Assembly (NCBI RefSeq): GCF_000003815.2
Contig: NC_049996.1
Location: 18,231,763-18,295,762, forward strand
DNA from: Branchiostoma floridae
Taxonomy: Eukaryota > Chordata > Leptocardii > Amphioxiformes > Branchiostomatidae
Length of the DNA stretch: 64,000 nt
Reading direction: 5' to 3'
The stretch's first letter is position 1. Each line of letters begins with the position of its first letter. A program made the position numbers and the translations under genes. The notes below the pieces were generated by a model. That model was not told the origin of the DNA and ran no database searches. It saw only the letters and a list, made by a program, of their open reading frames with translations. Shown here one piece after another: positions 14,218 to 56,345 of the stretch.

Positions 14218-17200
14218 ATGGCTACAGCACAGCCACCGACAGCAGAGAACCTCACAGCCCCGGCTGCAGCTAGCCAGACGGCGGCGGGACCGGGCACAGG
14301 GGCGGCCGGGGGACAGACAGTCGGCGGGACGGAGAGCCCCGCCCCGGGGGCCGCAGGTGGAGGAGCCGCCGCCCCGGTCAGCTTCGTGTGCCAGAGATGC
14401 GGGCAGCCCCTCAGGTAGGTTCTCAATGTGTCAATTCTACAATGTAGATACATTCTAGTGAGTATTAGTCTTCAGTATCATCCTATGGAAAATTACATTG
14501 CAGACAACAGTGTTTTCATTTGGCTGACAACCTTATGATATGAGAACAAATTTATGATATTCCTTTACACTCAAATTATATTTAGCAAATGGGCCTATAC
14601 ATGATAAGGTTTACGTTTATGTCATTTGTAAGCCGTAATTCTAGCTTGATGAAGACTTCCATGACTTCCTAGAAATCCATCTATAAATTATAATGTAACG
14701 TTATATTGTTATCATCATCATCGGTCAACGGGGTTATAGTGTAGAAATTGGCAGGGGCGAGTAAGAACAGAAAGAAACAACACCCCGACTCCCGGGATTC
14801 GAACCCGCGCCGAACCCGGGCAGCCGGATCACAAATCGAACGTGCAAACCGTTCGGCCAAAAGGCTTAAGCCGTTAGGCGTCTTCGGTTTAGCAGTCCTT
14901 GAACACCACTGTTACACTACTCCCCCTTTTCTTTTCAAGATTCGTCCTCGAATCTCCGAGATCGACATCCCTGTGTGGCACATACTAGCCTGTTACTCAC
15001 AGGGCCGGCGTGGGAACCATTGTAGAAATTGGCAGGGGCGAGTAAGAACAGAAAGAAACAACACCCCGACTCCCGGGATTCGAACCCGCGCCGAACCCGG
15101 GCAGCCGGATCACAAATCGAACGTGCAAACCGTTCGGCCAAAAGGCTTAAGCCGTTAGGCGTCTTCGGTTTAGCAGTCCTTGAACACCACTGTTACAATA
15201 GTACATCTGAAGTTATGGCACCCCATGTAAGGAGGAGTAGAGGACACAGATGTTGTTGTCTCTTTTCTTACATAATCGCCAGACTAGATGCATCACTCAC
15301 AGCTCTTGACCAGGGCACGCTCGACGATCTGACAGCACTGCTGGTATCCAAAGGGGAGGGAGGGTGATTTGAGAGCTAAGATGTTGTTGTCTTGTCTCTA
15401 CATCATCTGTTTTTAAATCTCCAGACTAGACGCCTCTCTCACAGCGTTGGACCAGGGAATGATTGACGAGCTGACAGCACCGCTTGTGGCCAGAGAAAAG
15501 AGGGGGGGGGGGGCTGCCAGGAAAGAGGAGGGGAGAGCTAACATTTCGTTACAACTCTCACATCATCTGTTTTTAAATCTCCAGACTAGACGCCTCTCTC
15601 ACAGCGCTGGACCAGGGCACTCTTGATGAGCTGACAGCACCCCTGGTGGCTGGAGAGGAGGGGGAGGGGGGCAGGAAGGAGGAGGGAAGGGTTCAGATGT
15701 TGTTGTCTTACCTCTTACAAAATCTCCAATCTAATCAATAATCTCCTTTTTAAACCTCCAGACTAGACGCCTCTCTCACGGCGTTGGACCAGGGCACCCT
15801 TGACGAGCTGACAGCACCGCTGGTGTCCGGGAAAAAGAGAGGGAGGGGGGGCAGGAAAGAAGACGGGAGAGCTAAGATTTTGTTGTCTCTTTTTTAAATC
15901 TCCAGACTAGACGCCTCTCTCACGGCGCTGGACCAGGGAACCCTTGATGAGCTGACCGCGCCCCTGGTGGCAGGAGAGGAGGGGGAGGGGGGCAGGAAAG
16001 AGGAGGGAAGGGCTCAGATGTTGTTGTCTTGCCTCTTACAAAATCTCCAATCTAATCAATAATCTCCTTTTTAAATCTCCAGACTAGACGCCTCTCTCAC
16101 GGCGCTGGACCAGGGCACTCTTGATGAGCTGACCGCGCCCCTGGTGGCAGGAGAGGAGGGGGAGGGGGGCAGGAAAGAGGAGGGAAGGGCTCAGATGTTG
16201 TTGTCTTGCCTCTTACAAAATCTCCAATCTAATCAATAATCTCCTTTTTAAATCTCCAGACTAGACGCCTCTCTCACAGCTCTGGACCAGGGCACCCTTG
16301 ACGAGCTGACAGCACCCCTGGTGGCCGGAGAGGAGGGGGAGGGGGGCAGGAAGGAGGAGAGGGGGAGACAGGATGTCAGGTTTGAGGAGACTCGGGAGGA
16401 CGGGGTCATCAGGAAACTCATACCTGCTGCAAGGTAACTGCACTATAACCTGATCAGAAGTTAATTGTTCTACAACCCAAAGAAAATATGACATAGCAGA
16501 GTTTTTGAACGTATCTAGGGCTCGAAATTCATCTTTCTGATTAGGTGCACTGATGCACCATGTAAAAAAAGTAATAAAAAAAAAGTGTACACAGTTTTGG
16601 AGTGTTGACAATATGGATGAACCCAAATTCCAATTTAAAATTCTTATGTACTATCATGACATTTTATTATCTTTCTAACACTTAGATGTCAATTGACAGT
16701 AGTATACACTGAATCATAATCTTAAGATTATGATCATAATCTTAAGATTATGATCCAGTGTGTACTACTGTCCTTTGGTATCTAACATACGCAAACCTAC
16801 AAAAATATTTGGGTGCACCAAGGTACATATGCACCCACCCAGTATTTGAGCAATGGTATCTCATGGTCTTCCTCAGCTTTCAATTATAACATTTGGTAAA
16901 AAAATCTACAATGCATATGTTTGACTTAGATTGACCTTCTAATGTTTGACCCGGATTGACCTTCTGATATCTGACCCAGGTTGACCTCAGTGGAGAGCGG
17001 CAGTGGGTTCACCCTGATCGATGCTGATGGCAGAGACAACCCCAGTCATAGGTTAAAGGTCACCAGCCACCTGTTTGACATCATGTCGGGACAGACTGAC
17101 GTGGACCACCCCCTGTGTGAGGTGGGCTCTTCCAATGATCTGATGTTGTCATCTCCTGTATACACGTGAAGTTGGTGTTTAACCTTTAGCTTGCTAAGAT

Positions 17201-56345: not shown

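Follow-up and report, generated by a model that had tools for sequence, protein, structure and literature searches.

A 64-kb window of the Branchiostoma floridae genome (C18:18231763-18295762), by which we mean the whole stretch of DNA that was analyzed, is rich in tandem duplications that carry an exon edge together with its splice site. Based on hand-built gene models, 12 of the 100 splice junctions in the window lie inside such a local tandem duplication. This excess at junctions is real in the window, but it is only about two-fold. Judged by their descriptive features, the arrays belong to the known amphioxus mirage minisatellites. As an overall explanation, to which we give an even chance, they would be mirage minisatellites whose excess at junctions is partly due to survivorship and whose copies exchange coding alleles by short gene conversion.

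Duplicated exon edges in six genes

Six genes were modelled by hand exon by exon, namely BECN1 (12 exons, 484 residues), an LRR gene (16 coding exons, 750 aa), P450 A, B, and C (7 exons each), and GUK1 (six exons with an open frame, the last exon not being found in the window reading). The three P450s are presumably CYP2-like. Five of the six models, all but GUK1, could be read from ATG to stop in a single open frame and have AG/GT at their modelled junctions, and a Pfam scan of four proteins (BECN1, LRR, GUK1, and P450 A) identified APG6/BH3, LRR, guanylate kinase, and P450. Residues 50-483 of the 484 residues of BECN1, modelled without the copies, align with the solved human Beclin-1 with zero insertions at the duplicated edges. 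Exon numbers refer to coding exons and seem to agree with those of a preliminary description of the same DNA. Tandem copies were detected by Tandem Repeats Finder together with a self-comparison of the window, and a junction was regarded as spanned if a tandem copy had at least 3 bp on each side of it. A home-made gene finder that was tuned on the window had 80 of 100 predicted boundaries right at a score cut of 20; all counts rest on the hand-built models. The window contains 559 N, with an assembly gap at about 62946-63504.

The spanned junctions belong to BECN1 (exons 2, 3, 7, and 10), the LRR gene (exons 4-8), P450 A and B (exon 5 in both), and GUK1, and the twelve arrays comprise nine acceptors and three donors with units of 25-177 bp (Table 1). 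At each junction the unit is the exon's own edge, and no sequence common between the sites was found by self-comparison, supplemented by a genome search for BECN1 exon 2 only, in which part of the candidates were scored. AG or GT is kept at 23 of 24 copy sites (a count without BECN1 exons 3 and 7, GUK1, and the 33-bp LRR units), and the use of 22 of these 24 sites would be followed by a premature stop. The copies sit on the intron side of existing introns, and the joined coding sequences are uninterrupted. At one clean join, that of LRR exon 4, the same 6-base motif is present at both breakpoints, which would suit slippage or microhomology-mediated joining.

The preliminary description had reported recurrent duplications of exon edges on the acceptor and donor sides of unrelated genes, each from its own edge, and had denied a single transposon family. 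The first statement is supported and the second is very probably right, every junction unit being a copy of the edge of its own exon. It had named 14 junctions, ten of which carry spanning tandem copies (BECN1 exons 2, 7, and 10, LRR exons 4-8, and exon 5 of P450 A and B), whereas four are weaker. The copy of the BECN1 exon 5 edge lies 600 bp downstream and is thus not tandem. At LRR exons 11 and 13, short decayed copies are seen by eye only (about 36522-36566 and 37395-37415) and are absent from the self-comparison list, and at LRR exon 16, the last coding exon, it is the end of the exon that is copied over 44 bp (39665/39800), which involves no splice junction. The units had been said to measure 33-177 bp, and those of the twelve spanning arrays measure 25-177 bp. 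GUK1, which was said to show no copies, has an acceptor copy and therefore fails as a clean internal contrast. The same had been said of P450 C, where indeed zero copies span a junction, but a 20-bp array stops shortly before exon 7. It is one of three further arrays that end 3, 5, and 16 bp before an exon start (LRR intron 5, LRR intron 4, and P450 C intron 6, respectively).

Table 1. Duplicated exon edges and junction-adjacent arrays in the 64-kb window.
Feature	Position	Strand	Description
BECN1 exon 2 acceptor array	15229..16374	+	six upstream copies with acceptors 15283, 15425, 15585, 15762, 15906, 16083; used acceptor 16260; unit up to 177 bp
BECN1 exon 3 acceptor array	16917..16987	+	25 bp x 2.8; exon start 16980; absent from the preliminary description
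BECN1 exon 5 donor edge and copy	18204-18232 and 18804-18832	+	29-bp copy, 97%; non-tandem
BECN1 exon 7 acceptor array	19777..19919	+	56 bp x 2.6; exon start 19917; exon overlap only 3 bp
BECN1 exon 10 donor array	21746..21903	+	38 bp x 4.1; frame stays open only with first donor (after 21778)
LRR exon 4 acceptor array	29897..30098	+	111 bp x 1.8; exon start 30014; copy acceptor 29903; GATAAC (6 nt) common at join
LRR intron 4 24-bp minisatellite	30324..30848	+	ends 5 bp before exon 5 (start 30854); last unit is the polypyrimidine tract by eye
LRR exon 5 donor array	30972..31156	+	67 bp x 2.7; donors after 31013, 31080, 31147
LRR intron 5 23-bp minisatellite	31240..31560	+	ends 3 bp before exon 6 (start 31564); by eye reaches into its polypyrimidine tract
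LRR exon 6 donor duplication	31667..31717	+	26 bp x 2
LRR exon 7 acceptor copies	31848..32326	+	31852 (old, neutral-looking), truncated near 31967, 32099; used acceptor 32238
LRR exon 8 acceptor array	32810..33718	+	nested 33/115/181/214-bp periods; five long copies and 33-bp units; used acceptor 33654
P450 A exon 5 acceptor copy	46953..47235	+	upstream of used exon (start 47123); AG of the copy lost
P450 B exon 5 acceptor array	54586..55014	+	about 150 bp x 2.9; used exon start 54897
GUK1 acceptor duplication	6065..6251	-	6065-6120 versus copy 6191-6251, 80%; used exon start 6087 on the minus strand
P450 C intron 6 array	62065..62126	+	20 bp x 3.1; ends 16 bp before exon 7 (start 62143); near the junction, not across

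Excess of duplications at splice junctions

The genic DNA, once collapsed, measures about 36 kb and contains 100 junctions, so that a large overlap is expected by chance. Thus, a null model was used in which each array was collapsed to one unit and placed uniformly wherever it was not wholly exonic. The list of 23 genic tandem loci and their unit limits was compiled by hand from the output of Tandem Repeats Finder and the self-comparison; left out were the pair at BECN1 exon 5 (non-tandem), the pair at 39665/39800 in the last exon and the array at 39723 (both outside intron territory), the microsatellites at 59866-60056, and intergenic arrays. Under this null model, 12 of the 23 loci span a junction compared to 5.3 expected (P 0.0009). 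The preliminary description had suggested a genome-wide enrichment check with Tandem Repeats Finder; in this window, spanning loci are about 2.2-fold over chance. When placement was restricted to the same gene or to within 1.5 kb, the expectation was 5.4 and 5.7, respectively (P 0.001-0.002 against the 12 seen). Among loci with an identity of at least 85%, 9 of 15 are spanning compared to 3.8 expected (P 0.002), and after removal of three transposon-like arrays the count is 12 of 20 compared to 4.4. Loci that lie across or within 20 bp of a junction number 15 of 23, with 7.1 expected (P 0.0003). Of the intron bases up to 25 bp from a junction, 12-13% are duplicated; the share falls to 7% at 25-50 bp and 1.7-3.6% at 50-400 bp, but is 11% beyond 400 bp, where a few long intron arrays lie. 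The idea of a process that starts at exon edges is weakened by these data, because 11 of the 23 genic loci cross no junction (three of the 11 are at most 20 bp away from a junction) and the excess is roughly two-fold.

Elsewhere in the genome, the head of P450 exon 5 gave 30 matches, which were grouped into 25 genes, and in four of these genes a neighbouring same-strand extra copy lies within 300 bp. This edge is copied in two of the three window genes (A and B) compared to two of 22 outside (C204:112341/112489 and C18:17847070/17847340). The whole exon 6 gave 32 matches, none of them with a neighbour within 1 kb, in a type of search that short edge copies may escape, and the tail of exon 4 gave only three. 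The BECN1 exon 2 array matched only its own place among the candidates scored (40 of 651), the other matches being an element of intron 2, and no second BECN1 exon 2 locus was found among them. Two arbitrary 100-kb blocks (200 kb in 20 stretches, L013-L032) contain 35 arrays with a period of at least 14, compared to 29 in the 64-kb window; since the blocks carry no gene models, this comparison shows only that the window is array-rich. The sequence was inspected at three of the 35 control arrays, of which two have no evident exon edge by eye and one is an in-frame coding duplication. The latter, a 42-bp duplication at L023:3049-3135, is in frame in an open, coiled-coil-like stretch on the minus strand, and L030 and L032 also contain tandem copies of a very similar 42-bp unit.

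Synonymous bias in the exonic parts of several copies

The codon analysis was carried out with the ungapped copies of eight arrays. Exonic columns are variable in 20 of 176 first, 15 of 176 second, and 56 of 175 third codon positions. Between the copies and the used exon there are 63 synonymous and 33 non-synonymous events, taken as the minimal number per column, for which strict independence does not hold. The neutral expectation is about 28% synonymous (0.26-0.31 per exon) and is exceeded by this ratio (P 2e-14), as is a synonymous share of 46% (P 8e-5). Three copies had been excluded for indels (the P450 A copy, P450 B copy 2, and LRR exon 7 copy 2), and with them included the ratio is 79:52 (P 2e-5 against 0.42). 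Eight non-coding repeat pairs, one of them taken from the intronic portion of the BECN1 exon 7 array, revealed no codon rhythm, the best phase (chosen post hoc) holding 42% of 175 differences.

The bias can also be seen in single copies. BECN1 exon 2 copies 3, 5, and 6 have 4, 7, and 7 differences to the used exon, every one at a third position, and between copy 6 and the used edge none of the 77 upstream intron bases differs, while the exonic differences are confined to third positions until the end of the unit. Likewise, the three donor copies of LRR exon 5 differ solely at third positions, with none of 28 intron bases differing between the first two. The LRR exon 4 copy shows 11 synonymous to 1 non-synonymous events and LRR exon 8 copy 5 shows 7 to 0. 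The distal and oldest copy of LRR exon 7 is codon-flat, with 7 differences at each of the three codon positions. A neutral-looking pattern is also shown by the P450 copies (2 synonymous to 5 non-synonymous in A, 8 to 13 in B), and thus the synonymous bias is not universal. Simple neutral decay was rejected for the pooled data by the ratio of 63:33 against the expected share, but it remains our reading of the P450 copies and of the oldest copy of LRR exon 7. In the intron flanks of all arrays pooled, 31 of 80 columns vary, which is as much as at third positions, so that flanks are unchanged only in some arrays; LRR exon 7 accounts for 20 of these 31 columns.

In the four-gamete test, 29 of 78 pairs of informative sites fail for BECN1 exon 2, as expected under exchange between copies or alleles, and repeat mutation could contribute. 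The single testable site pair of LRR exon 8 does not fail. The P450 A copy matches its own exon at 106 of 113 positions and the exon of the other gene at 107 of 113, and for the first copy of P450 B both values are 107 of 113. Overall, exon 5 of P450 A and B, the A copy, and the first B copy are all about equidistant (104-107 of 113) and the second B copy is farther away (98-101), which looks as if the paralogues exchanged sequence. Decay following one-way copying and array-internal turnover with selection on the used edge, either one-way or two-way, were also considered and rejected, as they reached a simulated synonymous share of 0.44 at most. Thus, a source that is already under coding selection seems to be needed.

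Mirage minisatellites and a proposed origin of the copies

Mirage minisatellites have been described for Adh3 (Canestro et al., 2002, as cited in PMC3087553) and for the globins BflGb6 and BflGb9 (PMC3087553). In these systems, one edge is used, many copies keep AG/GT, and the units measure 10-72 bp in Adh3 and 150-160 bp in the globins (PMC3087553). The arrays of the window share the position of the unit across the exon-intron boundary, the preserved splice dinucleotides, and a unit length in the same range; they differ in that 12 of 100 junctions are affected within one 64-kb window and in unrelated genes, in their unit range of 25-177 bp, and in a measured synonymous bias, which was not seen in the available portions on the known systems. 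Lancelet PGBD5 carries 60-bp and 108-bp imperfect tandem repeats over 5' and 3' splice sites, and the authors suggest that splicing is undisturbed (PMC3902484). Here, too, tandem copies overlap splice sites on both sides, but PGBD5 is a single gene compared to several genes in the window, and coding constraint is not addressed in the available portion. The gain of an intron by tandem genomic duplication in potato RdRp (PMC4974935) is similar in that the duplication carries splice signals, but in our case the copies lie within an existing intron and no new intron is formed. Accordingly, intron gain by AGGT tandem duplication was rejected, given the intron-side position of the copies and the uninterrupted coding sequence. 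Membership in a dispersed transposon or satellite family was rejected as well, because the units have no sequence in common between sites (with the genome search covering BECN1 exon 2 only and part of its candidates).

The link to mirage minisatellites had already been drawn in the preliminary description, and it agrees with the features given in the available portions of PMC3087553 and PMC3902484. The mixture of acceptor and donor sides, which it had considered to be new, is not, since the legend to Figure 6 of the globin paper already has both boundaries duplicating (PMC3087553). The present analysis contributes the density in one window, the test against a null model, and the synonymous bias, of which the last may be new: we found no description of it in the portions of PMC3087553 and PMC3902484 that were available. 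A genome-wide mirage survey was not recognized in the literature searched, which had partial coverage with most subscription papers outside of it. Mirages have so far been reported gene by gene (PMC3087553; PMC3902484, both as far as available), and for the window their density can be given, together with a null model and the size of the excess.

In the explanation that we put forward, duplications would arise all through introns via slippage or short-homology joining. Where the unit lies across a splice junction, local tandem duplications would be enlarged by unequal exchange and would be tolerated, as splicing would use one edge and the remaining copies would stay intronic. Their over-representation at junctions would come partly from the slower decay of coding copies and partly from an extra cause. 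Short conversion tracts, confined to the exonic stretch that is alignable between divergent homologues, would transfer coding alleles to both the copies and the used edge. In this way, young copies would come to hold synonymous variants, next to intron flanks without changes in the case of BECN1 exon 2 and LRR exon 5, and old distal copies would decay neutrally. Exon alleles on other chromosomes would be a natural coding-selected source. Allelic dN/dS in the Chinese lancelet is 0.067-0.089 (PMC4284660), which by our own arithmetic corresponds to a synonymous share of about 0.8, and non-crossover tracts in B. floridae are mostly shorter than 200 bp (PMC12500494). However, allelic synonymous diversity is given as 0.0397 for B. 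floridae (PMC12862219) and 0.070-0.075 for the Chinese lancelet (PMC4284660), whereas copy and exon differ at 7 of 26 third positions in BECN1 exon 2 copy 6 and at 10 of 29 in LRR exon 4, that is, several times as much. Capture of ordinary alleles thus fits the ratio but not the amount, and was rejected in this simple form. If unused exon edges keep the protein sequence, something exchanges sequence between the copies and the real exons. If true, this bears on exon conservation in very polymorphic genomes and on intron gain or shift.

Several other explanations have to be weighed against this one. The closest holds that duplications arise anywhere, that wholly exonic ones are purged and intronic ones decay fast, and that junction-spanning ones persist via their one selected copy, so that no junction-specific process is involved. 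In line with this, arrays that cross no junction are about as common as those that do (11 of 23), the P450 exon 5 edge is rarely copied outside of the window and the whole exon 6 showed no neighbouring copy at its 32 places, and a crude survivorship model with slower decay of coding copies lifts the expectation from 5.3 to 6.1, so that part of the excess may indeed be survivorship. However, the 12 loci seen still exceed 6.1 (P 0.009), and synonymous-only differences in young copies are not predicted by such a scheme, which we consider conceivable but somewhat unlikely to suffice. Such differences would follow from a bolder version of the conversion model, which appears unlikely to us: homologous introns would be too divergent to pair, meiotic gene conversion would be confined to exons and fail or slip at their edges, producing the boundary duplications, and the copies would be an archive that swaps synonymous alleles with the used exon. 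If this were true, the young copies with none but synonymous differences would be its trace.

It might also be that some copies do serve as coding edges, either alternative or extended, and are codon-constrained for that reason. The retention of AG or GT at nearly all copy sites would fit, and the reading frame would stay open if the LRR exon 4 copy or LRR exon 8 copy 5 were included, so coding use is possible there. However, the insertion of 37-38 codons misfits the 23-residue LRR repeat according to our own reading, the copies of BECN1 exon 2, BECN1 exon 10, and LRR exon 5 differ only or mostly synonymously although their use leads to a premature stop, and BECN1 aligns with human Beclin-1 without any insertion at a duplicated edge, which makes this improbable as a general cause. 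A synonymous pattern would likewise be shown by allelic copies if two haplotypes had been concatenated in the assembly or arrays mis-sized, and one globin mirage appears to be aberrantly assembled in the genome draft (PMC3087553, available portion). Such an artefact is highly improbable here, since it would need a separate error at each of the twelve junctions, since units of 25-177 bp with truncated, decayed, and nested members do not resemble haplotype concatenation, and since mirages are known from several other amphioxus genes, in the globin case with RT-PCR (PMC3087553; PMC3902484, available portions). A transposon or satellite family that targets splice sites could be suspected from the 162-bp intron array at 43446-43957, which by eye resembles a dispersed family in L026 and L032, and from a 56-bp array whose unit occurs on many contigs. 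But each junction unit comes from its own exon edge, and the BECN1 exon 2 array found only itself in the scored part of the genome search, so that we regard such a family as hardly credible.

Further repeats were observed within the window. The 56-bp array mentioned above (48834-49756) has about 16 copies, and a 224-base probe for its unit found at least 167 matches in the genome, with 40 of 1962 candidates scored; a single inverted 56-bp unit is present by eye in LRR intron 4 near 30545-30580. The 162-bp tandem array lies in P450 A intron 1, and the reverse complement of its unit corresponds by eye to the unit in L026 (2957-3344) and L032 (4179-4763), so this array is probably a dispersed family. 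In intron 3 of the same gene (45915-46320), a long inverted repeat that appears MITE-like by eye holds a 42-bp tandem duplication with donor-like ends, and downstream of the gene (48120-48830) a dispersed copy was noticed by eye that corresponds to the last LRR exon and its 3' flank (about 39545-40300). BECN1 intron 1 contains a 180-bp direct repeat (14740-15200, 99.4% identical, 281 bp apart) with a tRNA-like box by eye, and intron 2 contains an element (16517-16820) that has a palindromic 20-bp repeat inside and matches the genome partially at dozens of places.
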